64,000 nucleotides of DNA from a virus (IMGVR_UViG_3300021964_012561:50637-114636); one strand, 5' to 3'; positions 11,828-60,578 are shown, counted from the stretch's first letter. A program made the numbers and translations. The notes: a model not told the origin generated them from the sequence alone.

Positions 11828-12436
11828 ATGAAATTAAATCGATTACAATTAAGAAAAATAATTTTACAAGAAATTCAAAGTTCAATAGACGAAGAGATAA
11901 TATTTGCAAAAGATGGTTATTTAAACTATGGCATGCAATCTCAACATGATCAAGGCCATGTATATAGATCTAAATGTTCTGAATGTGGCTCAAAAATGTA
12001 TGAAGGTGACAAAGTTTGTGAACAATGTGGTTATTCTATGGCAGAAGAAGAAACACGCAAAGAATACATAAGCGAGGGTGCTTGTGGCGGTTGTGGATCA
12101 TGTAGTACTTGCGGCGAAGATGACGGATCAGATTATTCAATAGATACAATGGGAATGGTAGGGGACGCATTACATGCTTTAAATGACGCAGGTTACAATG
12201 TTGATGCAACAAAAAGAAAAGACTATAAAATAGGTAATCATAAAATATTTAAAGGGTCGTATATGGCAAAAAGTCACCTATACAAAGTCAATAAATATTC
12301 AGAAAAGCTTTACCATATGATACCAGACGGTCATAATCTTGAAGACTGGATGAGAACAAAATTAGCACAAATAGCTGATGACATTGGTGAAGTTTATCAC
12401 GCATTAGATCATGATATATTTGAGGGTGATGTATAA
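11828..12436 (+). CDS. Zinc-ribbon protein with putative capsid-targeting N terminus
   Basis: The 202-residue protein begins MKLNRLQLRKIILQE, one of the recurrent basic amphipathic leaders in this genome. Residues about 55-73 form a zinc ribbon (CSECG then CEQCG). A second Cys-rich patch, CGGCGSCSTCG, follows near residue 90. The C-terminal 60 residues (AKSHLYKVNKYSEKLYHMI then DWMRTKLAQIADDIGEVY) look like a compact helical domain that I recall from other marine T4-like phage proteins with similar leaders. A possible prohead-protease site is IDE or LQE near residues 15-22. Packaging in the virion is inference. The stop is immediately followed by the ATG of the PAP2-Fic gene. Confidence 0.65.
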   Translation: MKLNRLQLRKIILQEIQSSIDEEIIFAKDGYLNYGMQSQHDQGHVYRSKCSECGSKMYEGDKVCEQCGYSMAEEETRKEYISEGACGGCGSCSTCGEDDGSDYSIDTMGMVGDALHALNDAGYNVDATKRKDYKIGNHKIFKGSYMAKSHLYKVNKYSEKLYHMIPDGHNLEDWMRTKLAQIADDIGEVYHALDHDIFEGDV

Positions 12437-22506: not shown

Positions 22507-23103
22507 ATGAAATTACTTACAGAGTGGTGTGCATTTAACATAACAAAAGAAATGATTAACGAGTCTAGAGAACGTCATGGAGGAAAATTAGTTTTAAAAG
22601 GTCCGATTCAAAAGTCTAACACTTTAAATCAGAACGGAAGAATCTATCCTAGGGCGATACTTGAAAGAGAAATTATGAATTATCAAAAATTAATTCAAGA
22701 AAATCGTGCAATGGGTGAATGCGATCATCCTGATTCTTCTGTTGTTGAACTTAAAAATGTTTCACACGTAGTAAAAGAAGCTTATATGCAAGGTGACATT
22801 GTATACGGCGCAATAGAAATACTAGATACACCTAGCGGAAAAATTATTCAATCACTAATTGAAAGTGGCGTTACTTTAGGTATTTCTTCAAGAGGCGTAG
22901 GGTCTACACAAAAACAAGGAAATACACAAATAGTACAAGATGATTTTCAGTTAATTTGTTTTGACATGGTATCAGAGCCTTCTACTCCTGGCGCATTTGT
23001 AATGAGAGAGGGAAAAGAAATTTCTCAAGACGAAATTAATAAGATTTTTAACAAAACTGATCGGGTTAATAGAATTTTTAATGATATATTAAACTGGGAG
23101 TAA
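22507..23103 (+). CDS. Prohead maturation protease (gp21-like)
   Basis: The 198-residue protein resembles T4 gp21 (212 residues), the serine protease that trims capsid, scaffold and internal proteins after [LI]-x-E. The herpes-protease-like elements visible are NQNGRIYPRAILERE (about 39-53), the catalytic His in GECDHPDSS, and the catalytic Ser in TLGISSRGVGS. The N terminus, MKLLTEW then KEMINES, resembles the leader of the minus-strand exonuclease (MKQILTEW then KFINER) and could be a self-processing propeptide. It follows an AAGGAG SD and precedes the scaffold and capsid genes. Confidence 0.93.
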   Translation: MKLLTEWCAFNITKEMINESRERHGGKLVLKGPIQKSNTLNQNGRIYPRAILEREIMNYQKLIQENRAMGECDHPDSSVVELKNVSHVVKEAYMQGDIVYGAIEILDTPSGKIIQSLIESGVTLGISSRGVGSTQKQGNTQIVQDDFQLICFDMVSEPSTPGAFVMREGKEISQDEINKIFNKTDRVNRIFNDILNWE

Positions 23104-23105: not shown

Positions 23106-23555
23106 ATGTCAAAATTATTAAGAAGTGAATTAAAATCTATTGTAAAAGAATGTTTAGTTGAAATATTATCTGAAGGGTTGGCAGAAAACAATAGCAGCAA
23201 TTACATAAAAGAATCTAGCGAATATAATAAAAAATCAATAAAATCAAATGTTAACAAGTCTTCTTATTTGAACAAAATTTCTTATAATCGAGAATCAAGC
23301 AAAAAACAAGATTATGCGCCTGCTAGTAAAATTAAAAATACAAATTTGACATCTGATCCTATTTTGAATGATCTACTTGCTGATACTGCTAAAACTACTT
23401 TGCAAGAGCAACTCTCAGCTGAGTCTCGAAGAGGACCGATGGTAACTACTGGTGGTGATAGAGCAACAATGATAGTAAATCAATCAAATCCGGAAGAATT
23501 ATTTGGAAGTGAAAGTGCCGGCAAGTGGGCTCAACTAGCTTTTTTTGATCAATAA
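23106..23555 (+). CDS. Putative internal head protein with targeting leader
   Basis: The 149-residue protein begins MSKLLRSELKSIVKE and continues VEILSEGLAE, which contains LSE followed by Gly, a good match to the prohead-protease consensus. The middle is Ser/Asn/Lys-rich and likely disordered. The C terminus ends GKWAQLAFFDQ, which resembles the end of the scaffold protein (RWARLAGLK). Its position directly after the protease and the leader suggest a prohead-core or packaged protein. The function is otherwise unknown. Confidence 0.6.
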   Translation: MSKLLRSELKSIVKECLVEILSEGLAENNSSNYIKESSEYNKKSIKSNVNKSSYLNKISYNRESSKKQDYAPASKIKNTNLTSDPILNDLLADTAKTTLQEQLSAESRRGPMVTTGGDRATMIVNQSNPEELFGSESAGKWAQLAFFDQ

Positions 23556-23602: not shown

Positions 23603-23854
23603 ATGAAAAGAAAAATTTTACGTTTGACACCGCTTCTTTTAAAAAAAATTATTAAAGAAGAAAAAGAAAAAATTTTAAAGGAAAGACAACAGAAAAAAAG
23701 TAAGTTAAGTAATCGTCAAATTGTTGAATCATTAAAAAAGTTAGTGTTGCTTAAAAAAGCCCAAAAAAGAGCTGGTAAAGATTTTCAAAAAATCTTTGAA
23801 GAAAGACAAAAAATTAAAAAATTAATCAAGGAGAGCACAAATGGCAGGAACTAA
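23603..23854 (+). CDS. Small Lys-rich protein with targeting-like leader
   Basis: The ATG at 23603 is well placed after GGAG at 23593-23596, so I prefer it to the in-frame TTG at 23591. The 83-residue product, MKRKILRLTPLLLKKIIKEE and onward, is an extremely Lys/Glu-rich helix. The first 20 residues resemble the basic amphipathic leaders of the putative packaged proteins. The end overlaps the next gene by 14 bases. It could be a small core protein like T4 gp67/68; that is inference. Confidence 0.5.
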   Translation: MKRKILRLTPLLLKKIIKEEKEKILKERQQKKSKLSNRQIVESLKKLVLLKKAQKRAGKDFQKIFEERQKIKKLIKESTNGRN

Positions 23855-24996: not shown

Positions 24997-26517
24997 ATGT
25001 CAAAAATTTTTGAAGAAGCATTAGCAGATGCAAAAAAACTCAAAGAGGTTGCTGAAGCGAATGCTAAAAAAGCGATTTTAGAATCAGTAACTCCTAGAAT
25101 TAAAGAGTTTATTGAACAACAAATTCTTGAACAAGACGACAAACTAGTTGAATCTAAGAATGACGTCGATGATGTTCCGGAAGAAGCAATGCATGCATTA
25201 TTAGAAATGATTGCAGGTAAAGATCTTGTTAGTAAAATTACTGACAAACAAAAATTAAACGAGGCGTTTAAAAAATCATTTGACAACCTGAATGATTCAG
25301 AACAATTACAAATGAAAAATTTAATACAAAAAATTAATCAAGAAAAAAATAATTTAAAAAGCAGAAGAATAATTAATTCTGTTAACACAATTCAGGAGAA
25401 CAAACAAATGAGTAGTCGTGAAAAATTTTACGAAATTGACTTAGCACTTTTAAGAGAAGCAGTTGATGACAAAGCTGTTGAAATGAAAGCTAAAGAGTTA
25501 GAAGAAGACGATTTTTTAAAAGGTTTAGAAGAAGAAGACAATCAAGCTGAAGAAAAATTAGATGAATATTCTATACTTTTCGAACAAGATGATGCAGACG
25601 AAGCTTCAGAAGAAATGGAAGAATTACCTGATGAAGCTGGTGCTGGTGCAGAAGATGACGCTGTCGAAATTCCTTTAGATCTTGCTCAAGAATTACAATC
25701 AATTTTAGACGCAGAATTAGGAGGTGCTGCTGGTGAAGCTGCCGGTGGAGAGCTTGGTGATCTAGGAGATTTAGGAGCAATGGAAGATTTAGAAGATTCT
25801 GAAGAAGAATCTGAAGAAGAATCAATTGAAGAAATGGGTCACTACGGCATGAATGAAGACGATGTTGACGAACCTCTTAAAGAAATGTTTGATGTTGATC
25901 CTAGCATGCTTCGTGAAGAATTAGCAAGCATTAGATCAATGTTAGGTGAAGGAAAAATGGATCACCACTTTGGTGGAAAAGGCGCCGGAAATGGAGGTCA
26001 TAAAAACGCATTCGGCGGTTCTGGACCCAAGAAACATGGATATCAAAAGTCTTTCGGTGGTGGATCTTATGGAAAAGATGTATTCGTAACTCCTCCTTCA
26101 ACTTTAAAGAAATTAAATGAAGCTATTCAACAGCTTCGCAAATTGAGCCGCATGAATCGAGCTCAAAACGAGAAACTGAATAAATACAGAGGTGCAGTTC
26201 ATACACTTCGTGAACAGTTGGAAGATCTCAACTTATTCAATGCAAAATTACTCTATGTAAATAAGCTTTTACAAAATAAAAATCTAAACGAGTCACAGAA
26301 GAAATCTGTTATCAAAGCTTTAGATGAAGCAAAAAGCTTGGGAGAAACAAAAGCATTGTTCCAATCGCTTACTGAATCATTGTCATCATCTAAGTCAAGC
26401 TTAAATGAATCGACTCGTTTTGGTAGCTCTTCAAGAACAACAACTTCCGGATCAGGAGCTAAAGACAGAAAAGTCGGTGAATCTGATCGTTGGGCGAGGT
26501 TGGCTGGTCTTAAGTAA
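24997..26517 (+). CDS. Prohead scaffold protein (gp22-like)
   Basis: The 506-residue protein lies directly upstream of the capsid gene, as gp22 does in T4 (269 residues). The N-terminal 130 residues are helical (SKIFEEALADAKKLKEV). The centre is strongly acidic (runs of Glu/Asp around residues 160-300). A Gly/His-rich linker follows at about 325-360, and the C-terminal 130 residues form a helical coiled coil ending DRWARLAGLK. High acidity and coiled coils are typical of T4-type scaffold, which is degraded by the prohead protease. Several [LI]-x-E sites are present. An AGAGGAG SD precedes the ATG. The extra length is unusual. Confidence 0.8.
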   Translation: MSKIFEEALADAKKLKEVAEANAKKAILESVTPRIKEFIEQQILEQDDKLVESKNDVDDVPEEAMHALLEMIAGKDLVSKITDKQKLNEAFKKSFDNLNDSEQLQMKNLIQKINQEKNNLKSRRIINSVNTIQENKQMSSREKFYEIDLALLREAVDDKAVEMKAKELEEDDFLKGLEEEDNQAEEKLDEYSILFEQDDADEASEEMEELPDEAGAGAEDDAVEIPLDLAQELQSILDAELGGAAGEAAGGELGDLGDLGAMEDLEDSEEESEEESIEEMGHYGMNEDDVDEPLKEMFDVDPSMLREELASIRSMLGEGKMDHHFGGKGAGNGGHKNAFGGSGPKKHGYQKSFGGGSYGKDVFVTPPSTLKKLNEAIQQLRKLSRMNRAQNEKLNKYRGAVHTLREQLEDLNLFNAKLLYVNKLLQNKNLNESQKKSVIKALDEAKSLGETKALFQSLTESLSSSKSSLNESTRFGSSSRTTTSGSGAKDRKVGESDRWARLAGLK

Positions 26518-26559: not shown

Positions 26560-28530
26560 ATGTCTAGATCATTTAGTTTAAATCAACTGACAGAAGGAAT
26601 CAGAGAACGTCATTTAGGCGCTGATACCTCACGTCTTGTGTCAAAATGGACACGTACCGGTCTTCTTCGAGGACTTAACGAAAACAAGCGCGAAAATATG
26701 GCTCGCATGCTTGAAAATCAAGCGTCTCAACTTCTTCGTGAGGCAAACACCTTAGGAAGCGGTGGATCTGCTAATAACATCGATGGATTCTCTAACATCG
26801 CATTTCCAATCGTTCGTCGTGTATTCGGTGGATTGGTTGCTAATGAATTGGTTTCCATTCAGCCTATGTCACTTCCAAGTGGACTTCTTTTCTACTTAGA
26901 TTACACATACGGTAGTGATATTCACGGTGAAGATGCAGGTGCAGGAAACGCTGCTGATACATCTTCAGCAAACATTTATGGAAAAGGTGATTCTCTTTAT
27001 GGTAATCCTTCTGGAAGTTCTATCCGAACAGGTGCAAATGCAGTTGGCGGTATGTACGACTTAGCTGGTAGTGGTTATTCTTTAGTACATTCTTCCTCAA
27101 ACATTCTTGCTGATAATGATGCAGCTCTAAACGATACTTTCCATGTACACAACATTGCTTCTGCATGGGGTGCATACAATACGGCTGGAACATTTACTAT
27201 TGGTAATTCTTTAGAAATTACTAATAATAAAAACCTTAAATTAATTCAGTATGATCCACAACTTATCAAAGAAATTTCAGAATACAGTACATCTTTTTCT
27301 GTTGGCTTCTTCGAGTTAGGTGAAACTATCAAATCACAATTTGACAGAACCAATGCAAAATCTTGGGGTCTTGTACAACATTTAGGTGCGGTAACTGCTA
27401 TCGATACAAATCTTTTGTCTTTTGATCAAGATGCTTCTGGTAATGCAATTACTGACTCTTCAGGAAACGCTTACCAAGATGGTACGGGTGTTTTTAACCT
27501 TAGAAGACTTAATCAAATTGGTACTTGGAACGCTTCTACCAAGGTTTGGACACCGGACGTGACTGGTGATCACTTATTAGCAGTTTTTAGAGGTGCACCA
27601 GCTGATACAACAGGTCGTACAGCGGCAGTTGAATTGCAACTAGTTGCTCCGGTACTTGATCAAGTATCAGCAGAAGGTGGAACCGGTGGAGTTGTAACTA
27701 TTCCTTCTTTCGAATCTGGATTTTCTGCTGGTTCTACCGGAAATGTTGCTCCAATTATACCTGAAATCGACATCAAGATCGAGTCTATCGCGGTAACAGC
27801 TCAGACACGTAAGTTAAGAGCTCGTTGGTCTCCAGAACTCGCTCAAGATCTTAATGCTTATCATTCAATGGACGCTGAGGTTGAATTGACCCAGATTCTT
27901 TCTGAGCAGATTGCATTAGAAATTGATCGTGAAATTCTTAATGACCTTCTTGTTGAAGCAAAAGGTGCTAACTACTACTGGTCACGTGCTCCTGGTAAAT
28001 TCGTTAAGAAAGACACCGGTGCAGTTGCTTCTAGTACAATTGGTCCTAACTTTACTGGTACAGTTCGCGAATGGTACGAAACTCTTGTTGAAACCATTAT
28101 CGACGTTGCTAATGAAATTCATAGAAAGACTCTTCGTGGAGCTGCTAACTTTATCGTGGTATCACCTGAAGTTGCAACTATTTTCGAAGCATCAGTTCTT
28201 TACAAGCCAAGCATCAAAATTGATGGACAAGGACAGACATCTGCTCCTTTCTCTATCGGTGCAGAGTCGATTGGATCTCTTTCTAACAGATTTACTGTTT
28301 ACAAAGATCCTTACTTCCCACGCAACAAGATCCTTGTAGGATACAAAGGTGGATCATACCTTGAGTCTGGATACGTCTATGCTCCTTATGTACCACTTAT
28401 CGTTACTCCTACAATCTTCGCACCTGAAGATTTCACACCAAGAAAAGGTGTAATGACTCGTTACGGTAAGAAAATGGTACGTGCCGATTTCTACGGAACA
28501 GTTACATGCCTTGACATGGACATTATCTAA
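26560..28530 (+). CDS. Major capsid protein (gp23-like)
   Basis: The 656-residue protein is larger than T4 gp23 (521 residues). The N-terminal region ends in SQLLREANTLG, with LRE followed by Ala at residue 61/62. This matches the T4 processing site, where the prohead protease removes 65 residues. The mature region contains NIAFPIVRRVFGGLVANELVSIQPMSLPSGLLFYLDY, a hallmark of this HK97-fold capsid family, and later QTRKLRARWSPELAQDL. Codon use is visibly less AT-rich than neighbours (many C-ending codons), as expected for a very highly expressed gene. A TAGGAG SD precedes the ATG and a terminator follows. Confidence 0.96.
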   Translation: MSRSFSLNQLTEGIRERHLGADTSRLVSKWTRTGLLRGLNENKRENMARMLENQASQLLREANTLGSGGSANNIDGFSNIAFPIVRRVFGGLVANELVSIQPMSLPSGLLFYLDYTYGSDIHGEDAGAGNAADTSSANIYGKGDSLYGNPSGSSIRTGANAVGGMYDLAGSGYSLVHSSSNILADNDAALNDTFHVHNIASAWGAYNTAGTFTIGNSLEITNNKNLKLIQYDPQLIKEISEYSTSFSVGFFELGETIKSQFDRTNAKSWGLVQHLGAVTAIDTNLLSFDQDASGNAITDSSGNAYQDGTGVFNLRRLNQIGTWNASTKVWTPDVTGDHLLAVFRGAPADTTGRTAAVELQLVAPVLDQVSAEGGTGGVVTIPSFESGFSAGSTGNVAPIIPEIDIKIESIAVTAQTRKLRARWSPELAQDLNAYHSMDAEVELTQILSEQIALEIDREILNDLLVEAKGANYYWSRAPGKFVKKDTGAVASSTIGPNFTGTVREWYETLVETIIDVANEIHRKTLRGAANFIVVSPEVATIFEASVLYKPSIKIDGQGQTSAPFSIGAESIGSLSNRFTVYKDPYFPRNKILVGYKGGSYLESGYVYAPYVPLIVTPTIFAPEDFTPRKGVMTRYGKKMVRADFYGTVTCLDMDII

Positions 28531-28601: not shown

Positions 28602-29135
28602 ATGAAAATAAGTAAAAAAGATTTAAAAATGTTAATTGAAAATTATGTAAGCGAAGGATGGGCTGATCAAGTAAATTCAAATTATGCTGATGGGATGAGA
28701 GACAGCTTAAAAGGTGCTGGTTTCAAAGAAGATAATATGTGGGACATGAATTCTCACTATAAGGCAGCTGATACTTTTCATGCACATCTACAGCAAGGTT
28801 ATGATTATGAAACTGATATGAATGGAGACGATGTACAAATTGATGAAGAAGTAGAAACTCCTAAAGGGGAAGTTTCAATAGTTCCTTGCCCTAATGGCTT
28901 GACTGTGTTAATTGGTAAAAATGGTGCACCAGATTTGCTAGTGCCAAAATATTCTAAAAAGAGTACACGTGAGCCTAAGGTTTTATCATCACAAGAAAAA
29001 GCTGTTGTAGCTTTTATAGAAAAGTATGGTAAGAAATTTAAAACAGACAATGAAAGACTAAGAGTAGAAAAATCAGGTTTAACTCCGTACACTAAATTAT
29101 CTGTTAATGGGTATAGCATTTGTTTTGTTCCTTAA
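28602..29135 (+). CDS. Putative packaged protein with targeting leader
   Basis: The ATG at 28602 follows GGAG at 28593-28596. The 177-residue protein begins MKISKKDLKMLIENYVSEG, which matches the shared leader and has VSE followed by Gly as a possible cleavage site. A helical segment follows (SNYADGMRDSLKGAGFKED), then a C-terminal beta-rich domain from about residue 80 that ends in NGYSICFVP. The function is unknown. It is the first gene after the capsid terminator. Packaging in the head is inferred from the leader. Confidence 0.6.
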   Translation: MKISKKDLKMLIENYVSEGWADQVNSNYADGMRDSLKGAGFKEDNMWDMNSHYKAADTFHAHLQQGYDYETDMNGDDVQIDEEVETPKGEVSIVPCPNGLTVLIGKNGAPDLLVPKYSKKSTREPKVLSSQEKAVVAFIEKYGKKFKTDNERLRVEKSGLTPYTKLSVNGYSICFVP

Positions 29136-29219
29136 TCATTATACATTTATTAAAAATTTTGTACTATTACCTAGTATCATTAAGATACATTTACACACAA
29201 TACACACACGGAGAAAATC

Positions 29220-29411
29220 ATGGCTAGTAATCCATATGAACTGCGCCAAGGTCTTTTAGGACAAGCCCAACAAATTTTAGTAGAAGCATACCACAGTGAA
29301 GTGCAACGATGTCGAGATCAAGGCGTTGCTGCTCATAATGTAAAGTTTCCTTCAACAGAAGATATTATAGCAGAAGCTGAAAAGCTTTATGCATTTGTAC
29401 AAAAAAAATAA
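29220..29411 (+). CDS. Small conserved-looking protein
   Basis: The 63-residue, helical protein begins MASNPYELRQGLLGQAQQIL and follows an ACGGAG SD. Short proteins with this SNPYELR start are familiar to me from T4-like marine phages, where they are annotated as hypothetical. No metal or catalytic motif was seen. A leader of about 80 bases with ACACAC repeats precedes it. Confidence 0.6.
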   Translation: MASNPYELRQGLLGQAQQILVEAYHSEVQRCRDQGVAAHNVKFPSTEDIIAEAEKLYAFVQKK

Positions 29412-29471
29412 ACAAATAAAATTTATTTTTTAAAACATACTTATTTTTAACAAGCTAAGTTAGGAGTAAGT

Positions 29472-30065
29472 ATGTTTTTTTTGTTGTTTCTTTTAAGTTT
29501 TTTATCTTTTGGAGGTGAGCCGCAACCTGACATGTCGATTACGGTAACTGCAGTTAAAGGTGTGACAATTTTTGTTGACAAACCTATTGTTATAGGTGGA
29601 GGAGAAACTTATCAATCTTCTGAATTAGAATTTTTAATTACAAGTTATGCGACTTTACATAAAGAAACTTTTGTCAAAGATCCGCGAATGATAAATAGTA
29701 TTTATAACGCATCAACTGTCCAAACGGTTAATTCTGAATGTAACTGGTTAGGTAATTCAATAGATTGTGCAACTTCTGAATATATGTATGTTTTAAAAAC
29801 GCAGGTGGTTATTAATCCTGTTAGAGCATACGTCACAGTTACACTGCATGACCACAGAATGAATGCAGTTTCTTCAGCTACAGTATCCAATAAACATCAA
29901 AGAAGTGTAATACAGCTGGTACAGCAAACACAATCTCAAGGCTTGTTAGGTAGTACAACAACTACAAATCCTCAAAAGCCAGAAATATTTAGCGTAGAGC
30001 CGTATCTTTATGAAAAAGATTTTCGCCAAGCTGTTATTTTAATGTATAGCTCATTTCGATTTTAA
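29472..30065 (+). CDS. Predicted exported protein
   Basis: The 197-residue protein begins with an uncharged hydrophobic segment (MFFLLFLLSFLSFGGEP) that looks like a signal peptide or a single membrane anchor; it lacks the usual basic n-region. The rest is beta-rich with two Cys (in NSECNW and DCATSE, residues about 77 and 85) that could form a disulfide in the periplasm. Such phage-encoded envelope proteins may act in lysis or superinfection exclusion, but there is no motif to choose. An AGGAG SD precedes the ATG, and the gene overlaps the end of the minus-strand gene by four bases. Confidence 0.6.
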   Translation: MFFLLFLLSFLSFGGEPQPDMSITVTAVKGVTIFVDKPIVIGGGETYQSSELEFLITSYATLHKETFVKDPRMINSIYNASTVQTVNSECNWLGNSIDCATSEYMYVLKTQVVINPVRAYVTVTLHDHRMNAVSSATVSNKHQRSVIQLVQQTQSQGLLGSTTTTNPQKPEIFSVEPYLYEKDFRQAVILMYSSFRF

Positions 30066-30400
30066 ATGAAATCTTTCCAAGCGTGAGGTTTTCTATCTTT
30101 AAGGTAATTTAAGTCTTTGTCGTTTTCATACGCTTCTCTTTCAAATGGAATTGCATAATAAGCTTTTCTACCATTTAAACCTTCTAATCTCGCTTTAAGC
30201 CAGTACCATACATAAAGAACATAAAAACCAATCAACCAGAGTTCTCTCTGTTGAACAAGGTGAATCTTTTCGTGATTGTATACAGTAACATCAAGCTTTT
30301 CTTTTGAAATAATAAACGGGTATAACGTAATCGCATAGACATCAATAAAAAGACTCATTGCTTTGCAAAATTTTGGGCTAATTATTATTATTGGTTTCAT
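30062..30400 (-). CDS. HExxH metallopeptidase-like membrane protein
   Basis: Reading on the minus strand, I choose the ATG at 30400, preceded by AGGAG, giving 112 residues. His43-Glu44-x2-His47 (NHEKIHLVQQREL) matches a zinc HExxH motif, and the later FEREAY (Glu87/Glu89) could supply the third ligand. Between them is one hydrophobic helix (WLIGFYVLYVWYWLKARL, about 55-72). The pattern resembles a small membrane-associated family seen in bacterial genomes, in my recollection especially Bacteroidota. Proteolytic activity is inference. It lies one base downstream of the exonuclease gene, and the pair forms a minus-strand cassette. Confidence 0.6.
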   Translation of the reverse strand: MKPIIIISPKFCKAMSLFIDVYAITLYPFIISKEKLDVTVYNHEKIHLVQQRELWLIGFYVLYVWYWLKARLEGLNGRKAYYAIPFEREAYENDKDLNYLKDRKPHAWKDFI

Positions 30401-30401
30401 G

Positions 30402-31328
30402 TTATCTCCTATTGTATGGATATTTAGGCTTGAGTGTGTCAACAGCGAACCTACCACCTCTATTTGGATCTAGTAAGTATTGTAATGTTTTATAAAGCAC
30501 CTCCATTGTCATGCCAATGTCTGCAGTAGCTTCATGCCACGATTCATTGTCAATTTCAAATGCTGTTGCCATCATGCCTAGGCGGCTAGCAAGATAAGGT
30601 TTTCCTTTATACGATAATGCTGTGATACTGTCGATAATGTGTTTGTCTTCTGCATTCATTTCTGACTCATTTTTTTGCACATATTGTAAAACTGCTTTTA
30701 AATAATTATCAATAATTGCGATAGAATCCATTACGGCAATGTCTGGTGCATTTAGTCCACCTCTTTGGTAAAAAAGATTTGTCATTTTTGCGTCAAAAGG
30801 AGAATTGTGGGCCCAAAAAACTATTTTTCCTGTGGGGCTGGCTGTTTTTTGGGCCTGTATGTATTGATTAAACATTTCAGCGCCTTCTGCTTGATTAACA
30901 CGAGGTACACCATCACCACCATAATAATCATTCATGTCTAAAAGCCCTGGAATTGAGTATTTTGGGTCGCCTTGATAAGTTCCAGCATCAAGTTGGGCTT
31001 GTTGCCTTTGAATTTCAGTCTCAGTGTCGGATGTTAGTATAATCTTAACATTAAACATTCCATCGTTGACTGGGGAAGGTATTTGTTCTAATCCATTTGG
31101 TTCATAAGCTATAGCAGCTAACTGAGTAATTTGTACGAAATTAGGAACAGAACCGTCTTTGTTGGGTAAACCTGTCGTTTCTGTATCAAAAAAGACCCAA
31201 TTGTGTTGCGCAAGATCTTTAAGTTTGGAAATCATGGCAGAAAATTCAGGTGGGTAAAAACTAGGGCTAACTGAACGTTCATTTATAAACTTGCGCCACT
31301 CAGTTAAAATTTGCTTCATGTTATTCAT
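30402..31328 (-). CDS. DEDDh 3'-5' exonuclease with leader peptide
   Basis: The 308-residue protein has the DnaQ/epsilon-type exonuclease motifs: ExoI FDTETTG (Asp48, Glu50), ExoII AHNSPFDAK (Asp179) and ExoIII WHEATAD (His265, Asp270). It therefore belongs to the DEDDh class that removes nucleotides from DNA or RNA 3' ends. An extra N-terminal segment, MKQILTEW then KFINERS, precedes the domain and resembles T4 internal-protein leaders (MKTYQEFIAEA); INE followed by Arg at residue 17/18 could be a prohead-protease site. An AAGGAG SD favours the ATG at 31328. It could proofread for the small polymerase at 56784 or be packaged; both are inference. Confidence 0.85.
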   Translation of the reverse strand: MNNMKQILTEWRKFINERSVSPSFYPPEFSAMISKLKDLAQHNWVFFDTETTGLPNKDGSVPNFVQITQLAAIAYEPNGLEQIPSPVNDGMFNVKIILTSDTETEIQRQQAQLDAGTYQGDPKYSIPGLLDMNDYYGGDGVPRVNQAEGAEMFNQYIQAQKTASPTGKIVFWAHNSPFDAKMTNLFYQRGGLNAPDIAVMDSIAIIDNYLKAVLQYVQKNESEMNAEDKHIIDSITALSYKGKPYLASRLGMMATAFEIDNESWHEATADIGMTMEVLYKTLQYLLDPNRGGRFAVDTLKPKYPYNRR

Positions 31329-31403
31329 TCAATCTCCTTTAAAACTTTCTTCTTTTATGTTATAATTATCTTTATTAATAGCTATTTACTAAAGGAGAAA
31401 ACA
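31329..31403. promoter_or_regulatory. Divergent intergenic region with -10 box
   Basis: This gap separates the minus-strand exonuclease from the plus-strand gene at 31404. TATAAT occurs at 31361-31366 on the plus strand, 38 bases before the start codon, but without a good -35 at 17 bases. On the minus strand the same AT-rich block reads TTATAAC about 30 bases before the exonuclease start. Two SDs (AAGGAG on each strand) flank it. It must contain the promoter of the minus-strand pair unless transcription enters from farther away. Confidence 0.45.
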
Positions 31404-31739
31404 ATGCCAATAGCAAAAAAAACAGTAGAAGCAAAAAAAGAAGAAGTAGCAACTCACAAGCACGATGACTTATTGAAAGAAATCAATGCACTTAAAAAAG
31501 AATTAGAAACAGTTAAGGCAGAATCAGCAGCACTTAAAGGTCAATGTCATAGCTGCTGCGGAGATTTATCAGATCTTAAAAAACAGCTTAGTAGCTTAAA
31601 ATCAGCGCCTGCAGCTAGTAAAGATGGTAGAGTTGATTTATTAATTGACATTCTTAAGCTTAATTTAGCAAAAGGAAAACCGCAAGCAGTGGCAATTAAA
31701 GATAGTAAAAAAGCTGAGGCAATTTTAAATTCTTTGTAA
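31404..31739 (+). CDS. Small coiled-coil protein
   Basis: The ATG at 31404 follows AAAGGAG. The 111-residue protein has a Lys/Ala/Glu-rich N terminus, a heptad-like coiled coil (DLLKEINALKKELETVKAES), a Cys pair (CHSCCGDL) near residue 50 and a helical C terminus (VDLLIDILKLNLAKGKPQAV). It could be a small virion or scaffold-interacting protein. I do not recognise the family. It shares its transcript with the highly translated protein downstream. Confidence 0.55.
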   Translation: MPIAKKTVEAKKEEVATHKHDDLLKEINALKKELETVKAESAALKGQCHSCCGDLSDLKKQLSSLKSAPAASKDGRVDLLIDILKLNLAKGKPQAVAIKDSKKAEAILNSL

Positions 31740-31750
31740 TAATTAATAGC

Positions 31751-31822
31751 AGGCCCGGCACAAGCATAATAGCTGATCTCGCCAGTGTGTCGGAATCTTG
31801 CGAACCTAAAAGGAGGTGAATT
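31751..31822 (+). promoter_or_regulatory. Structured mRNA leader with near-perfect Shine-Dalgarno
   Basis: This GC-richer segment folds by eye. CCGGCACA (31755-31762) pairs with TGTGTCGG (31786-31793), eight pairs with one G-U. AGG (31751-31753) pairs with CCT (31805-31807). TCGC in the loop (31779-31782) can pair with GCGA (31800-31803), making a pseudoknot possible. Just downstream is AAGGAGGTGA (31810-31819), a full complement to the 16S rRNA 3' end, three bases before the ATG at 31823. The structure probably keeps the SD open or protects the mRNA 5' end, raising expression of the downstream virion protein; this role is inferred. Confidence 0.6.
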
Positions 31823-32263
31823 ATGCCAACAATTATAGTTGATCCTAAAAAAGGACTACATCAAAAAGCAGCAACATCAACAGAACCCGCAGGTTCTTTG
31901 TCCGGACATAAAAATGTTGTTAAGACATTAACCGGTGCGACAACTTTAACTGAAACTGACAGCGGCAAAACTTTTTTATTAAGTTTATCGGAGGGGACAG
32001 TGCAATTTCCTGTTAAGCCAGGATGGCATGGAGAATTTATCATAACCGGTTCTTGTGCAGCTGTTGTTTCTGGAAGTGATGCAGGTGGAATTGCTGTTGA
32101 TGGAATTTCTAGACAGTTAGGAGGTGATGCTTCTGAGGATGCCGTCGTAATTGCGAATGGAAAAGCGACTTTTCAGGTCGGCACAACAGCTTCAGGAGAC
32201 AGAGTAAAAATAAACGTTTTGACAACTGCATTAATAGACGTGCAGACTGCAACTAGTACTTAA
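31823..32263 (+). CDS. Probable abundant virion (decoration-type) protein
   Basis: The 146-residue protein begins MPTIIVDPKKGLHQKAATST and is Thr/Ser/Gly/Val-rich with a regular beta-strand pattern, and it has no catalytic motif. The very strong SD, the structured leader upstream and the terminator directly downstream suggest high-level late expression. These features fit a capsid decoration protein or head fibre protein, but no family match is claimed. The composition also fits a beta-sandwich tail protein. Confidence 0.6.
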   Translation: MPTIIVDPKKGLHQKAATSTEPAGSLSGHKNVVKTLTGATTLTETDSGKTFLLSLSEGTVQFPVKPGWHGEFIITGSCAAVVSGSDAGGIAVDGISRQLGGDASEDAVVIANGKATFQVGTTASGDRVKINVLTTALIDVQTATST

Positions 32264-32280
32264 TTTTATTTTAACTTTAT

Positions 32281-32310
32281 AAAAGACACTCATTTCGGGT
32301 GTCTTTTTTT
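32281..32310 (+). terminator. Intrinsic terminator
   Basis: AAAAGACAC (32281-32289) pairs with GTGTCTTTT (32299-32307), with an inner T-G wobble and a seven-base loop (CATTTCG). The T-run continues to 32310. It lies 17 bases after the stop of the virion protein gene and separates it from the following cluster of targeting-leader genes. Confidence 0.9.
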
Positions 32311-32400
32311 ATGTTTGCAAGAAGTTACTGTTTAGTTTATGTGATACTTTAAAGTGTTAGGTGATAATTATTAAGGACATATATATTGGAGGTTACAGAG

Positions 32401-32751
32401 ATGTCTCAGTTAAACAGAAAACAGTTGAGAAAAATGCTTTTAAAAGAATTTAAAATGATTGGAATGGCTAGTCCGCATGTAGGAATGTTGGGAAGTTCAC
32501 CATTTCAGCAAAATGATCATGGTTGTGATGCATGTGGAATGTCACCTTGTGGATGTGACGAGCATGAAGATCATGATCATGGACAATTTAGTATGACAGT
32601 TGGAAAAGCTGATTATGTAGGTGGTCATAAAGGACAAGTTTCAAAAGAAGATTGTTGCAAAGCTGTGCTTTGTCTTATTGAATGCTGTGATTGTCCTGAA
32701 ACGAAAGCATTACTTCAGGAATGTTGCGAAGATATTCTTTCTCGTTGTTAA
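32401..32751 (+). CDS. Cys/His-rich protein with targeting leader
   Basis: I place the start at ATG 32401, eight bases after GGAGG (32388-32392). The 116-residue product begins MSQLNRKQLRKMLLKEF, the shared leader. It then carries a metal-binding-like stretch (CDACGMSPCGCDEHEDHDHG, about 38-57) and a second Cys cluster near the C terminus (CCKAVLCLIECCDC then ECCEDILSRC). About a dozen Cys plus many His/Asp suggest binding of several metal ions or disulfides. It opens a run of leader-bearing genes. The function is unknown; packaging is inference. Confidence 0.65.
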   Translation: MSQLNRKQLRKMLLKEFKMIGMASPHVGMLGSSPFQQNDHGCDACGMSPCGCDEHEDHDHGQFSMTVGKADYVGGHKGQVSKEDCCKAVLCLIECCDCPETKALLQECCEDILSRC

Positions 32752-32759
32752 TTTTATAG

Positions 32760-33149
32760 ATGTATCTAACTCGTCGCAATCTTCGATCATTGATTCTAGA
32801 ATCTATCAGTGAGATTTTAAGTGAAGCTGATCCGAAAGTAGGCACAGGTAAAAAGCCAAAAGGATCAGGTCGAAGATTGTATACAGACGAAAACCCAAAA
32901 GATACAGTTCGTGTTAAATTTTCAAATGTTTCAGATATTAGAAAAACATTTTCTAAAAAAAGTTTTAAGTCAAAATCACATAAGCGTCAATCACAAATAA
33001 TTAATTTGGTACACCAAAGGGTTCGAGCAGCATATAAAAATGCAAAAGATCCAAAAGTTAAAAAACGTTTAAAAAAAGCTTATGATTATGCTAAAAAAAG
33101 AAAAGAAGCAAGCAAAAGAAAAACAGAAAGAATGAGAAAGAAAAAATGA
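32760..33149 (+). CDS. Very basic protein with targeting leader
   Basis: The 129-residue protein begins MYLTRRNLRSLILESISEILSE, the shared leader, and LSE followed by Ala at residue 22/23 is an ideal prohead-protease site. The mature part is extremely Lys/Arg-rich (GKKPKGSGRRLYTDENPKD, then HKRQSQIINLVHQRVRAAY and a Lys-rich helical tail). It probably binds nucleic acid, as expected for a protein packed with DNA. T4 internal proteins are likewise basic. The end overlaps the next start by four bases (ATGA). Confidence 0.7.
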   Translation: MYLTRRNLRSLILESISEILSEADPKVGTGKKPKGSGRRLYTDENPKDTVRVKFSNVSDIRKTFSKKSFKSKSHKRQSQIINLVHQRVRAAYKNAKDPKVKKRLKKAYDYAKKRKEASKRKTERMRKKK

Positions 33150-33523
33150 AACTAACAAGAGCGTTTTTAAGAAATTTAATTAAAGAAGTTAAAGGTGACA
33201 AGTCTTGCAAAAAAGCAACACAAGATCCTGAGTACAATAAAAAGAAAAAAGAAATTGCAGCTTCAAAAAAAGACGTTGCATATGGTCCTTCTAGCAGGCC
33301 TGAATTAAAAGATTATGCAAAGAAAGGCAAACTTTGTGGTAATTGTGGTGCATTTGATGTAACAAAAGAAATGCAAAATTGCATGAATGTTAAATACCCA
33401 AAAAAAATCGACGCTAACTTTTTAATTAAAGGTAAAAAGAAAGGCTACTGTTTAATGCATGACTTTATGTGTTCAGGTCATAAGACTTGTTTGACTTGGG
33501 GTTCAGGCGGTCCGAAAAAATGA
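33146..33523 (+). CDS. HiPIP-like Cys-motif protein with targeting leader
   Basis: The 125-residue protein begins MKLTRAFLRNLIKE. After a Lys-rich linker it has Cys64-x2-Cys67 (CGNCGAF), Cys79, Cys102 (GYC), Cys109 and Cys115 followed by TW. The CxxCxxF, then GYC, then C-x-x-W spacing recalls high-potential iron-sulfur proteins or small Fe-S or zinc domains of similar shape. A bound Fe-S cluster is inference; zinc is the alternative. It overlaps its neighbours on both sides by ATGA-type junctions, so it is co-translated with the other leader-bearing genes. Confidence 0.65.
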   Translation: MKLTRAFLRNLIKEVKGDKSCKKATQDPEYNKKKKEIAASKKDVAYGPSSRPELKDYAKKGKLCGNCGAFDVTKEMQNCMNVKYPKKIDANFLIKGKKKGYCLMHDFMCSGHKTCLTWGSGGPKK

Positions 33524-33870
33524 AACTTACTAGGCAAAAATTAAAATCGCTTATTCTTGAAATCTTTTTACAAGAAAAAAAGAAACGTAAAAAGCGTAAA
33601 AAGAAAAAGATTGATTATAAAAAAGCCTATAAAAAATACCACAGTTCAAAAAAAGCTAAACAAGAGCGTGCACAAAGAAATGCTGCTGGCCGAAAATTAA
33701 AAAAGATGGGTGTTAAAATACCTAGTGGTTATGAAATAGATCATAAAAATCCGATAAATAGTGGTGGATCAAATGATTTGTCTAACTTAAGAATAATTCC
33801 TCGTGGTAAAAATAGAGCTTTAGGACAAAAAATAACAACTGCAAAAAGAAAAAAGAACGGGAGTTATTAA
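33520..33870 (+). CDS. HNH endonuclease-like protein with targeting leader
   Basis: The ATG at 33520 overlaps the preceding TGA; an upstream in-frame start lacks the leader and is less likely. The 116-residue protein begins MKLTRQKLKSLILE, then has a very basic linker (residues 18-60) and a compact HNH motif: EIDHKNPIN (Asp74, His75), SGG, SNDLSNLR (Asn89) and KNRALG (Asn98). This matches the H-x2-P...GG...NL...N pattern of small HNH nucleases. It follows the HiPIP-like gene in an overlapping run. A packaged DNA nuclease delivered to the host is the inferred role; a homing or packaging nuclease is the alternative. Confidence 0.8.
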   Translation: MKLTRQKLKSLILEIFLQEKKKRKKRKKKKIDYKKAYKKYHSSKKAKQERAQRNAAGRKLKKMGVKIPSGYEIDHKNPINSGGSNDLSNLRIIPRGKNRALGQKITTAKRKKNGSY

Positions 33871-34719
33871 ATGAAACTTACCAGAAGACAATTAAGAAAA
33901 TTAATATTAGAACAGATTAGCAATACTACATTTAAAGATGCTGAAGAGTCTGGAGTAATTCCCGAACCGGAGCATAGTACAGATCCTTACCCAGGAAAGA
34001 TAAAGTTTCCTGGTCATTCTGCAGCTGATGCAGAGCATAGAAGAGCAACCGATTTTATGAATCCTGAATATAAAGCTACACCTTTAGAACGTCAAAGAAT
34101 TAAGAATAAGGCATATGGAAATTATGTTAAAAACTTACAACAAGGTATGGAAAAAGGGGACGCTGAGCGTTTGTATGATGCACAATCTAAAGGATATCCG
34201 GACTACCTCACTATGGAGCGAGATTTAGGTAGAAAAGAAGCTTACTCTTTCCACAGCTACAACGATATGGAATTAGATCAAAAAACAAGAGAAGAGTTAG
34301 CTGCAGAATTTCCTGACATGGATTTTACAGATGTGCAACCTAGCGTTGATCTTAAATTAAGTAGCATGATAAAAAAGTTTAGAGACGAGAGTCCTGGTGG
34401 CAGAACAACAGTTTATAAACTTAACAGTTTTATTAGAGATCTAGTAGCAACTGACATATCAAAACAAGATACTGAAGTTGGAGAATTTATAGCTGCTAAT
34501 CGACCAAATTTTCTTAAGGATTATCAAGAAAAAGGTTATTATAAGGACACAAAGCTAAATGAAAATAAATTTACAAGAAAAGATTTAAGAAGCTTAATGA
34601 ACGAAGAGTTAAAAAGATTGTCATATGTCAGTAAAGAACAAGGACATACATACGGGATTGAACATTTACCCGATCAATATGATCAGAAAAAAGCAGACGA
34701 TATAATAGGACACACCTGA
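33871..34719 (+). CDS. Leader-bearing protein, possibly with readthrough extension
   Basis: The 282-residue protein begins MKLTRRQLRKLILEQ, starting directly after the previous stop. Residues 18-225 are helical and charged and not recognised. A second copy of the leader-like motif lies inside, at residues 229-250 (LNENKFTRKDLRSLMNEE). That suggests two joined cargo units that the prohead protease could separate. The reading frame ends at a TGA (34717-34719) followed by CTG and then stays open without a start codon to 35097, so a longer product may exist. Confidence 0.6.
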   Translation: MKLTRRQLRKLILEQISNTTFKDAEESGVIPEPEHSTDPYPGKIKFPGHSAADAEHRRATDFMNPEYKATPLERQRIKNKAYGNYVKNLQQGMEKGDAERLYDAQSKGYPDYLTMERDLGRKEAYSFHSYNDMELDQKTREELAAEFPDMDFTDVQPSVDLKLSSMIKKFRDESPGGRTTVYKLNSFIRDLVATDISKQDTEVGEFIAANRPNFLKDYQEKGYYKDTKLNENKFTRKDLRSLMNEELKRLSYVSKEQGHTYGIEHLPDQYDQKKADDIIGHT

Positions 34720-35097
34720 CTGACTCATGTTCGGAAGAAGGGTTCTTCCTTAAATGAAGTTGGTTTTGTTCTTTGGCATTCCTTAAATGAAAGTGGTCAT
34801 GTTGCAATTTATGATGTTGAATGGCCTAACGGAACAATTGAAAGAAACATACCTGCACGTCTTTTAGAAAAAGTAAAAGATAGTAATGATAGTGTTGATG
34901 AACATGATGAGCATGGAGTTGTAGGTCATGAAGAAGACTCACTGTTAGGCGAAAGAAAATATAAAAAAAGAAAGAAGAAAAAGAAGTCAACAAAGAAAAA
35001 GCCTAAGTATTGGTATCTAGGTGGTTATGGAATAGACCATGATCATGATTTTGCTGATTTTGATGGAGACTTCGGCGGAGATGGAGGCGGAGAATGA
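34720..35097 (+). pseudogene. In-frame extension beyond a TGA codon (readthrough or decayed)
   Basis: This 374-base gap between genes is coding-like. It lies in the same frame as the preceding gene, separated by one TGA, and runs 125 codons to a TGA at 35095-35097 that overlaps the next ATG. There is no ATG, GTG or TTG in its first half, so independent translation is unlikely. The translation has protein-like content: an SH3-like stretch (HVAIYDVEWPNGTIERNIPA), a Lys-rich segment (RKKKKKSTKKK) and a His/Asp-rich tail (GIDHDHDFADFDGD). The SH3-like part seems to begin before the TGA. Readthrough, a nonsense mutation or an assembly error are all possible. Confidence 0.5.
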
Positions 35098-35732
35098 AAA
35101 TAACAAGAAAAAATCTTAACATACTGATAGAAAGGTACTTAAAAGAGTCAGATGAAAAAACAGTGCCAGGCGATAAATTCATTGACATACTAGATAAAAA
35201 GCAAAAAAAGCAAGAAAAAAACATACATGCTGTGACAGATTTTAGAAAAGGCAGTGATAGGGGTCAATTTCCTCCATTGACGTTTGGTCCAGGAGTGGAC
35301 GATGAAGGTAATTTAGAGGGTGGTAAATTTACAACTGTCCATGATTATCACGAACCTGACCCATATGATCATGCTGCTGTTAGAAGATACAAAAAACAAC
35401 ACTATTTAGGTCCTGATGATAAGTCCGTAGATGATCCTGAAATTACAAGAATTGGCTTAGAAGACGATGAAGATACTGAAGAGTCTCCTTTTGGAACACA
35501 ATATTCTTTAGATGCTACAGATCCACAATTTAGAATGGATGATAGGACTGTAGAAGATGATGGTTTTACCGCACACAGCGATGATGACTTTCACATGGAA
35601 GACGAGTACGATGAAGATTATGAAGAATCTGAAGATTATACAGAAGAAGATACTCTTTATGATATAGACGATGACAGTGAAGATGATGGTTTGATTGCAA
35701 AAATTAGAAAGTTTTTTTCTGGAAAGAAATAA
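35094..35732 (+). CDS. Acidic protein with targeting leader
   Basis: The 212-residue protein begins MKITRKNLNILIERYLKES, the shared leader, with LKE followed by Ser as a possible processing site. The remainder is strongly acidic and Asp/Glu/Tyr-rich, with a tail of about 60 residues almost entirely acidic (HMEDEYDEDYEESEDYTEED) before a basic C-terminal tip (IRKFFSGKK). It could be disordered and DNA-mimic-like. It is the last member of the leader-bearing cluster and lies 85 bases before the neck module. Confidence 0.6.
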   Translation: MKITRKNLNILIERYLKESDEKTVPGDKFIDILDKKQKKQEKNIHAVTDFRKGSDRGQFPPLTFGPGVDDEGNLEGGKFTTVHDYHEPDPYDHAAVRRYKKQHYLGPDDKSVDDPEITRIGLEDDEDTEESPFGTQYSLDATDPQFRMDDRTVEDDGFTAHSDDDFHMEDEYDEDYEESEDYTEEDTLYDIDDDSEDDGLIAKIRKFFSGKK

Positions 35733-38912: not shown

Positions 38913-41900
38913 ATGGCCGAACAAACATTTAAGTCCCCGGGGTTTTTTGAAAGAGAAATTGATGCTTCTCAAAGAACAGCATCAAGATCGTTTAGTGTCC
39001 CAGGTGGAATTATAGGAATAGCAAGTAGAGGGCCTGCTTTTGTTCCAAAAACAATTACGTCAATGAACCAATTTATCACAAATTTTGGAGATATCAAACC
39101 AGAACAATTTGGAGCAATTGCAGCACATGAATTTTTAAAATTAAGACCTGCTATTACTTTTACAAGAGTCCTAGGCGCAGGATCGATACAAAACGGTTCA
39201 GACTTAGATAACTACACTACATTAGGTATTGTAGCAAATGCTGGATTTTCTTTAAGTGGTTCAGTTAATAGTACACCTGGGCATGCTGAAAGGAGTGATG
39301 GTAGAGATGAAGGTTGTGTTCAGTTTATTTCAGCTAAGCACGAAATACAAACCAACGAACAGCATACTTACCCGATTTTTACTGATAATCAATCGATATC
39401 TAGCAGTACTGCTTATCTTATCAGAAGCATGGTACTTTTAGCTTCGGGTGCACGCTTAGAAATATTAGATCACAACGAATCTTATGCTACAACTGGAAGT
39501 GCAAATGATTTAGCGAGAATTAGTAACTATACAGGGCAAATTAAAAATCAAGGAACGTTTAAGGTTGTCATTTCTTCATCTTTAGGAAGTAGCTTTTCTA
39601 ATGACGAATTAAATCCAGGTATTAAAATTTACACAGCGTCTTTGAATCCTGATTCTGATTATTATGTAGGAAAGATTTTAAACACAAGTTATGATTTATT
39701 TGACTCAAAGCAACATTTACTTCTTGCAGATTTTGTCGTAGAAAATGACATTGCAAAAGTTGAGTATCATGCTACAAATGAAACTGTTGCAGTTTTATCC
39801 GGATCTAGAAGTACTTCTGCAAATGGTGATACAACTAAATACTTTAGAGAAGTATTTGGTTCATTTAATACTAGATACCAAAATGCAAAAACTACATCTT
39901 TTATTTCTCAGCCTTATGGATCCTTAGAATATGATTTATTTCATTTTGAAACATTATCAGACGGTGAAAGTGCAAATAAACTAGTATCTGTTTCTATTGC
40001 TAATTTAAAAAAGTCTGAAGATGTTAACGATCCATATGGGACATTTACCGTTCAAGTAAGAAAATATTCAGACGATGACAACAATCCTGTTATTTATGAA
40101 CAATTTAATAATTGCAACTTAAATCCAGATAGTGAAGATTATGTTGGAAGAAAGATAGGTGATTTAAACGTTTATTATAATTTTAATACAGTTTTAGAGA
40201 GTGAAAGAGGGTTAGCACAAAAAGGAACTTATTCAAATCAATCTAATTTCATAAGAATTGTCTTAAATCCAAACGTTACAAATAAAATAATTCCTAAGAC
40301 AGCTTTACCTTTTGGTTTTAGAGGATTACCTGTTCCTAAAACAACAGATACTTTAACATCTAATTCAACAGCTTTACCTGGTTTAGGAGGTCCAAGTATT
40401 AGATTGGGTGTCTCAGGTTCAGTTTCAGCATTTAAGTATTCAGTAGTCCCACCGGTTCCTATGACTTTTAAAGTAACAAAAGGAAACGGAAATACATCTC
40501 CTGGTTTTACCGGTCATGCTAGTCAAAATGAATTAATAAATAGCAATATTTATTGGGGCATTCAACAAGGTAGACTATACAAAAATACTAACATTGATAG
40601 CAGTGTAGGTCTTAGAAACCCAGAACTGCAGTCGAATAGTAGGTTATTTAATGAGCCTAGTCTCATCGATGCATACAGTAAATTTTTAGGAATACAAAAA
40701 TTAGATGCACTAGTAACCGGTTCTGGTGCAGATGCATTTAATAATAATAAATTTTCTCTTTCAAAAGTAGCATTAAATAATCAATCAAATAGCGCAGATA
40801 CTTTATCAGCTGCTGTTGCTAGAGAATTAACCGGTTCTGCTGACGAACACATGATTGATGCTGCTTACATCAGAAATGCATCTCTAGATCTTCCTAATTT
40901 GACTATTAATGATAATGTTTCAAATACAAGAAGACTAACGTTCGCATCTCTAGCAGCATCTAGCGCTAATACTTTTAATAAGTTTTCTAAGTTTGCTAAA
41001 TTTACCAATGTTTTTTACGGTGGTTTCGATGGCTTAAACATTGTCGATAAAGATGCACGGTTAATGAATGACAAAGCTTCTTCCCTGGAGACAGGGGGTA
41101 AGGCCAATGGAGGAGAAATAAGTTATCAAAACCTCCATGCAGGATCTTCACCTGGCAAAGGTTTAAGAAATAACATTGTCTCTGCTTATTTAGATGCTGC
41201 TAATGTGATGACACAAGAAGGCGTTACAAACATTAACACTTTAATCGTTCCTGGTATTAGAGAAAAATTAATTACAAACAAAGTTTCAGAAAAAGTAAAA
41301 GACAATTCAAAAATTATTTATTTAATGGACATACCTAGTTATGACAAAAACAACATAAGAAAGTTCGACGAATCAGCTGATTTACTAGACATAGGAAAGA
41401 CAGTAGATAAATTTAAAGCTAGAAACATTGACAACAATTTTGTTGCAACATACTTTCCAGATACATTTATTTCAACTGAAGCTGTTAGAAAAATTGTTAA
41501 AGTTCCAGCTTCCGTTTCAGCATTTCAAGCGTTAGCTTATAATGATAATGTTAGCTATCCTTGGTTTGCACCAGCAGGCTTTAACAGAGGTGCTTTAGAA
41601 AATGTTGTAAATACAGATTATAAATTAAACACTGCAGATAGAGATACACTATACGAAGCAAGAATTAATCCTATAGCAAATTTTGCGAATGGTAAGGTCG
41701 TAATTTTTGGACAAAAAACATTACAAATGAGCAGGTCAGCTTTGGATCGAGTTAATGTAAGAAGAATGGTTTTAGAAGTAAAAAGAATTGTTTCTAGAAT
41801 TGCCGGTGATTTTGTATTTGAACAAAACACTCAAATTTTAAAAGATAGATTTATTGCTCAAGTTACGCCTCAATTATCTATAATTCAGTCGCAACAAGGC

Positions 41901-45979: not shown

Positions 45980-46005
45980 ATAATTAAATTTTGATTTTAT
46001 TTTAT

Positions 46006-46042: not shown

Positions 46043-46053
46043 ATGGAGAATAA

Positions 46054-52582: not shown

Positions 52583-52586
52583 CCAA

Positions 52587-60092: not shown

Positions 60093-60578
60093 ATGAAAAT
60101 TTCTAGAAAAAACTTAAACAAACTAATTAGGCGTCATCTTATTAATGAAGGAATACTTGATACAATATCAGGTGCAATTTCAGGTGCAGCTGAAGGCCTC
60201 ACAAATATATTTACACGAGGAGCTGTTAAGTCAACAATGGTAAAAGCTTCATCAGAAGATGCCTATCAGCTTTTTAATGCAATGCAGGGATTAGGAACAA
60301 CTGAATCTGTTGTGAAAGACATTATTAGAAGAAGAGAACTAGAACAATCTTTGGTTGGATTATATGATGAATATAACAATCTTTTAAAGTTTTTTAATGA
60401 TGACTTTTGGGGAAAATATTCTATTAACAGCCTAATGAAGGCATCACAGTGGGATGGAGACTTGATTTCTTGGCTAGAAGGCGACGGCATGGATGAAGAA
60501 GCTAGGCTAGTTAAAGATGCATTAATAAAGGCAGATAAAAAAAGAGAAGAGGTTGACATAACACTTTTTGGCATGTAA
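60093..60578 (+). CDS. Annexin-repeat-like protein with targeting leader
   Basis: The 161-residue protein begins MKISRKNLNKLIRRHLINEG, the shared leader, and INE followed by Gly at residue 19/20 fits the prohead-protease consensus. Residues about 57-105 (AYQLFNAMQGLGTTESVVKD, then LVGLYDEYNNLL) have the AMxGxGT-x-E pattern of annexin repeats, and GDGMDEEARLVKDALI near 130-145 could be a second, degenerate copy. Annexins bind Ca2+ and acidic phospholipids; whether this one does is unknown. It lies between SSB and UvsX and is closed by a terminator. Confidence 0.65.
   Translation: MKISRKNLNKLIRRHLINEGILDTISGAISGAAEGLTNIFTRGAVKSTMVKASSEDAYQLFNAMQGLGTTESVVKDIIRRRELEQSLVGLYDEYNNLLKFFNDDFWGKYSINSLMKASQWDGDLISWLEGDGMDEEARLVKDALIKADKKREEVDITLFGM

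Follow-up and report, generated by a model that had tools for sequence, protein, structure and literature searches.

The 64,000-nucleotide stretch analyzed here (the window) comprises bases 50,637-114,636 of the 114,636-bp IMG/VR virus record IMGVR_UViG_3300021964_012561, which derives from an uncultivated T4-type phage. At least nine unrelated genes of the window start with the same N-terminal leader of 14-25 residues, MK-[IL]-[TS]-R-x2-L-x2-LI-x-E, here called class 1. A different leader, class 2, has the consensus MK-x-[LI]LTEWR-K-[FY]-[LI]-x-E. These leaders are probably capsid-targeting sequence (CTS)-type propeptides that act as packaging tags. The window contains nine class-1 proteins and one class-2 protein of this arsenal. 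They are listed below, with a slash for the predicted cleavage position; L and G numbers are handles for other sequences in the comparison.

11828..12436, + strand: leader protein MKLNRLQLRKIILQE, its body weakly matching a zinc ribbon; homologs in L021 and L235 carry divergent class-1 leaders
28602..29135, + strand: leader protein MKISKKDLKMLIENYVSE/G, encoded immediately downstream of gp23; accepted by pattern and homologs
30402..31328, - strand: DnaQ-like 3'-5' exonuclease with class-2 leader MNNMKQILTEWRKFINE (MKQILTEWRKFINE); Pfam RNase_T, E=0.00029
32401..32751, + strand: leader protein MSQLNRKQLRKMLLKE, Cys/His-rich body; opens a six-gene run; leader kept in 9/9 database homologs
32760..33149, + strand: leader protein MYLTRRNLRSLILESISEILSE/A, basic body DPKVGTGKKPKGSGRRLYTDENP...; junction L-x-E/[AGS] kept in 5 sequence contexts
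33146..33523, + strand: leader protein MKLTRAFLRNLIKE, Cys-rich body (CxxATQD...CGNC.AFD...MH.F.C); homologs with a class-2 leader or none
33520..33870, + strand: leader protein MKLTRQKLKSLILE, HNH-type nuclease body; PHROG 4590, E=8.7e-18, and a weak HNH match
33871..34719, + strand: leader protein MKLTRRQLRKLILE; a further leader inside the protein (KLNE/NKFTRKDLRSLMNE; KLNE/NKFTRKDLRSLMNEELKRL) precedes a C-terminal 51-residue module
35094..35732, + strand: leader protein MKITRKNLNILIERYLKE/S, highly acidic body; found by pattern and weight matrix
60093..60578, + strand: leader protein MKISRKNLNKLIRRHLINE/G, body weakly similar to annexin repeats (E=0.024)

Distribution of the leaders

The class-1 pattern is matched literally by the genes at 33146, 33520 and 33871, and with one or few changes by those at 11828, 28602, 32401, 32760, 35094 and 60093. 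A position weight matrix was built from 118 distinct environmental class-1 leaders and used to scan the complete 114,636-bp record. The ten highest-scoring genes were all located inside the window and on the + strand, and the remaining 50 kb of this genome gave no class-1 leader. Eight of the ten were clear of noise. The genes at 28602 and 32401 scored near the noise level; despite this, they were accepted as putative leader genes on the basis of the pattern and their homologs. A sequence-only reading had listed eleven leader genes with correct reading frames and coordinates. Nine of these fit, whereas two (23106 and 23603) are conserved head genes, and the list missed the exonuclease gene at 30402-31328 (-) as well as the leader-like N-terminus of gp21.

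Back-translation of the class-1 pattern matched 112 stretches in viral contigs, nearly all of them in-frame gene starts, whereas a codon-scrambled control pattern gave 6 matches, all junk. The pattern was not found in 1.03 Mb of random viral loci. As a leader it was also absent from 85,000 cellular genomes (257 Gb), in which the 17 matches were due to chance or to internal Met codons of DnaK. Chance can thus be excluded as the origin of the leaders. In total, 118 distinct IMG/VR proteins are headed by the class-1 leader. Similarity among the leader proteins spans about 16 residues and is followed by total divergence. A tblastn search of cultured phages with the leader consensus alone gave no match, and the class-1 bodies gave weak cyanophage matches only, without the leader. 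The T4-like late promoter pattern (TATAAATA) was not found upstream of the arsenal leader genes.

Class-2 leaders are similarly widespread. The search pattern MK-x-[LI]L-x-EWR-x-[FY]-x-x-E returned 94 stretches and 129 proteins, of which 107 were distinct environmental proteins, with a maximum of five per stretch. The sequence M[DK]KK-x-WNKILNENTL, noticed on several small proteins in the gp20-gp23 cluster of L225/L227, may represent a third class, and the same cluster encodes an ADP-ribosyltransferase-like protein, MKMERLKEIIKEEVNKFLNE/ATLYHGTT.

The protein encoded at 33871 has an unusual organization. Its C-terminal 51-residue module occurs as a separate leader protein in L065, and since the internal leader precedes a module that can stand alone, the arrangement suggests a two-cargo polyprotein. 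In the Cys-rich body of the 33146 protein (CGNC.AFD...GYC.MH.F.C...C.TW) the cysteine spacing looks iron-sulfur-like by eye. The annexin-like similarity of the 60093 protein surrounds a conserved GxGT[TD]E motif that it has in common with its homolog in L103.

Head genes and variable cargo

The window harbors a T4-type head module in which gp17, gp20, gp21 and gp23 were recognized via Pfam and a gp22-like gene by homology among relatives.

17987: terminase gp17, head module
19620: portal gp20; Pfam E=1.1e-71
22507..23103, + strand: gp21 prohead protease (Peptidase_S77); Pfam PF03420, E=2.1e-25; PHROG head maturation protease, E=3.6e-53
23106..23555, + strand: conserved head-cluster gene with leader-like N-terminus (...LKSIVKECLVEILSE/G), directly after gp21; orthologs or position-matched genes in relatives' head clusters
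23603..23854, + strand: conserved small head-cluster gene, leader-like (KLTP.LLK.LI.EEK), between gp21 and gp22; L235 and L237 have homologs in the equivalent place
24997..26517, + strand: gp22-like prohead scaffold, just upstream of gp23; homology across relatives, no Pfam match
26560..28530, + strand: gp23 major capsid protein; Pfam PF07068, E=1.1e-75

By capsid, the closest cultured relatives include Flavobacterium phage immuto, Microcystis phage Mel-JY01 and Rhodothermus phage RM378. The gp23 sequence can be read as having a putative processing site, LLRE/A, around residue 60. The gp21 protein is 30% identical to T4 gp21, with the blocks around His74 and Ser127/128 in common, and would be the enzyme that processes the leaders. 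Its own N-terminus at 22507 (MKLLTEWCAF) resembles a class-2 leader, and other gp21 N-termini (LLREYYEL and similar) look class-2-like too. In relatives, small basic genes lie between gp21 and gp22 (L005, 22183-22410; similar in L219-L228), and in Mel-JY01 these are annotated as ribosomal protein S21 (RpsU). Elsewhere in the window, the tandem large genes at 38913-42056 and 42090-45476 (+) have similar N-termini (MAE..[FY]KSPG.F.REID.S) and are apparently tail-sheath paralogs.

Comparison of relatives showed that leader genes are located in the gp20-gp23 cluster, several of them adjoining gp21, which favors head targeting. Alternatively, the leaders might indeed target the head but belong to prohead-core or scaffold proteins, or to DNA-condensing internal proteins like T4 gp67 and gp68, that help assembly and are degraded or retained and not injected. 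The two conserved leader-like genes found between gp21 and gp22 in relatives agree with such a role: the 23106 product is probably a prohead-core protein and not part of the arsenal, and both it and the 23603 product are probably core or morphogenetic proteins with N-termini that merely resemble the tag. Several window bodies are also small, basic or acidic, without enzyme domains, and gp21 is known to cut T4 core proteins (PMC9026906). Against this explanation stands the diversity of the cargo. The 263 leader proteins fall into 138 unrelated body clusters, and families matched by Pfam in a set of 133 representatives include SAM lyase, ART-PolyVal ADP-ribosyltransferase, GNAT, C39 peptidase, NUDIX, HNH and exonuclease. 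Furthermore, body content differs from genome to genome, in contrast to the conserved head genes. We therefore regard a purely structural role of the leader proteins as unlikely. Given the enzyme families, the variability and the role of T4 internal proteins against type IV restriction (PMC12373910), the bodies would act in the host and not in assembly.

The claim that the domains behind the leaders are unrelated is borne out by the clustering. Leaders are also exchanged on homologous bodies. The SAM lyase/DUF3293 body is found with class-1 and class-2 leaders, and with other short N-termini in Mel-JY01, Alishewanella and Campylobacter phages. A DnaQ exonuclease body occurs with both classes, the homolog of the class-2 protein at 30402 in L063/L087 having a class-1 leader. 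A kinase-like body also carries either class, and the Cys-rich family of the 33146 protein has a class-1 leader, a class-2 leader or none. Some of the other body clusters that appeared with both classes were low-complexity artefacts, and these four families alone were counted as swaps.

Cleavage motif and prohead protease

In T4 internal protein (IP) III, which starts with MKTYQEFIAE/A, residues 4 and 7 are important for targeting and residues 8 and 10 for processing, while Asp at position 10 stops processing and leaves targeting intact (PMC9026906). Relative to the Glu at the cleavage site these positions are E-6, E-3, E-2 and E. They match L8, L11, I12 and E14 of the class-1 leader, and W8, F/Y11, L/I12 and E14 of the class-2 leader. 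T4 N-termini do not score with the class-1 matrix, and the leader differs from the T4 CTS (MKTYQEFIAE). Identity with that sequence is not a required feature of T4-type capsid-targeted proteins because the leader sequence varies even among T4 head proteins.

Since the search patterns required Glu14, class-1 leaders were re-collected without that requirement (n=166). Glu14 was present in 125 of these, and an [LI]xE motif occurred at residues 13-25 in 96% of all 166, as compared to 13% in body windows. At residues 16-28 the motif was found in 58% of the leaders, and [LI]xD was depleted there (8% vs 23%). The putative cleavage sites given in the sequence-only reading, LSE-A in 32760, LSE-G in 23106 and INE-G in 60093, are all present. 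In the leaders of 11828 and 33871 the motif precedes a non-small residue.

The motif is also preserved at domain borders. A domain beginning with DPKxGxGKKPKGSGRRLYT is preceded by ALRE/G, TLNE/S, ILSE/A, VLKE/G and SLQE/S in five genomes, in which the sequence upstream of this L-x-E/[AGS] junction is different or diverged. Similarly, LINE/G is retained between the 60093 protein and its homolog in L103 at 39% identity. SAM-lyase homologs whose leader is class 1, class 2, T4-like or of another kind mostly begin their domain immediately behind [LI]xE/[SA].

Basic amphipathic helices are able to bind membranes or partner proteins. The leader helix is basic and amphipathic, and could in principle be an uncut docking element for the host membrane, nucleoid, RNA polymerase or ribosome, the proteins sharing one workplace. 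Such a function leaves unexplained why [LI]xE is enriched over [LI]xD/K/R/Q, why an [LI]xE/small-residue junction precedes homologous domains, why the leaders have the T4 register, and why two unlike leaders interchange on the same bodies, which makes it a quite improbable alternative to head targeting. Its presence before many unrelated bodies and the tandem runs of some genes might suggest that the leader is a relic of recombination or duplication that spreads without protein-level function. This is extremely unlikely, since codon identity at leader positions with the same residue is 49% vs 47% predicted from codon usage; the synonymous codons have diverged to the limit set by codon usage, which indicates that the leaders are old copies kept by selection at the protein level.

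The CTS register, the [LI]xE enrichment and the presence of an S77 protease in the genome agree with the proposed resemblance to T4 leaders and the gp21 motif. The distribution of the protease bears on this as well, equal occurrence of the leader in phages without a gp21-type protease having been named as evidence against head targeting. An S77 protease was detected in 38/99 leader contigs of at least 30 kb vs 2/24 random contigs (Fisher p=0.004), and an S78-type protease was detected in none of the leader contigs tested. At a length of at least 110 kb, 25/31 leader contigs encode S77. The 134-kb contig G004, with 27 leader genes and no S77, was considered as a counter-example to the S77 link and rejected because it shares the window block 45491-62774 and starts at the tail-tube gene, so that it is a fragment starting past the head genes.

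A connection to virions is provided by the class-2 leader proteins of the ART-PolyVal family, which are homologous to Ackermannviridae proteins. ORF173 of phage LIMEstone1 is a homolog of a class-2-leader protein of the ADP-ribosyltransferase family in L161 and starts with MKTFLQYLQE/S; the homolog in Vi01 starts with MKTFLEFYRE/S, and the LIMEstone1 neighbor ORF174 with MPTSKLFE/S. By mass spectrometry, ORF173 (17.33 kDa) and ORF174 were both identified as virion proteins with one peptide each (PMC3296691, Table 2), and their database records are annotated 'confirmed structural protein'. The window gene at 12437-13711 (+), which adjoins the leader gene at 11828 and encodes PAP2 phosphatase and Fic/DOC domains, has an N-terminus (MPYLLQDLFE/E) resembling the short ORF174 type.

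Several observations weigh against a cleaved packaging tag. No virion proteomics is known either for this phage or for the uncultivated phages related to it, and the LIMEstone evidence, a single peptide from the homolog of a relative's cargo, is silent on cleavage. Several window leaders are without a perfect [LI]xE at residue 14. Six of the 31 leader contigs of at least 110 kb have no S77, and of these only G004 is a demonstrated fragment; compared with random contigs of that length (2/4) the difference gives p=0.22, the control being too small for significance. T4, RM378, Flavobacterium phage immuto and Mel-JY01 have gp21 but gave no class-1 consensus in the regions searched. AlphaFold models of the 33146 and 60093 proteins were uninformative, with predicted local distance difference test (pLDDT) values of 43 and 40.

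Proposed packaged effectors and known systems

Taken together, a packaged-effector system is strongly favored. Modularity, motif, protease and register support this part of the sequence-only reading, from which the two morphogenetic genes have to be removed. During prohead assembly, the N-terminal amphipathic helix would dock each protein onto the T4-type scaffold core, after which the S77 protease gp21 (22507-23103) would cleave behind [LI]-x-E, with Glu14 as one site and frequently another in the region of residues 18-25. Cleavage would free the cargo within the head, from which it would be ejected into the host along with the DNA. The host or its defenses are the predicted targets of the swappable cargo.

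On a wider scale, we consider the chances about even that, in environmental T4-type phages, two or more interchangeable packaging tags serve to bring as many as a few dozen different proteins into a single head, including many enzymes (SAM lyases, ADP-ribosyltransferases, nucleases, peptidases). This would constitute a multi-effector injection device well past the ca. 10 internal proteins of T-even phages, with tags that may derive from the N-termini of gp21 and adjacent small core genes. If this is correct, a leader motif readable from sequence identifies phage proteins probably injected as infection begins, and hundreds of hypothetical genes in uncultivated phages become a searchable catalog of candidate virion-delivered anti-defense enzymes. 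The internal-protein strategy of T4 would be widespread and, beyond the T-even phages, would operate on a much larger scale; the leaders would offer new packaging tags for studying cargo entry into phage heads. A text search of the literature for the leader strings found no paper, and within the literature searched there is no description of this scale (27 in one contig), of the leader classes or of the cargo.

Phage P1 Dar proteins are head-associated anti-restriction proteins that act upon DNA entry, and the proposed cargo would resemble them in these properties. The closest parallel is T4, in which IPI, IPII, IPIII and Alt, like the proteins described here, are unrelated proteins with a short leader ending in [LI]-x-E and an S77 protease is encoded in the genome. 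Positions E-6 and E-3 are hydrophobic or aromatic in T4 as well as in the present leaders. T4 Alt is an ADP-ribosyltransferase, and relatives of this phage carry ADP-ribosyltransferase domains too; T4 IPs counter type IV restriction enzymes (PMC12373910). Unlike the T4 CTS of about 10 residues, the leaders form two main classes of 14-25 residues, often with two [LI]xE sites. At least 10 leader-sharing internal proteins have been reported for T-even phages, whereas the cargo proteins here are many more, 27 of them in one 134-kb contig, with leaders swapped between classes. SAM lyase, which is part of the cargo here, was not found reported among T4 IPs. In the Ackermannviridae phage LIMEstone1, a homologous ART-family protein was found in the virion, but its leader, like that of the Vi01 homolog, has a short T4-like form unlike that described here. 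In SPN3US and phiKZ, propeptides are cleaved after x-x-Glu by a distant gp21 homolog and several cleavage sites are possible (PMC5694885), which resembles the cutting proposed here. The phiKZ-type combination of a long propeptide and an A/S-x-E motif was not found in the leaders: several propeptides of those phages are longer than 100 residues, with A-x-E as the motif in SPN3US, whereas the leaders described here have 14-25 residues and [LI]xE.

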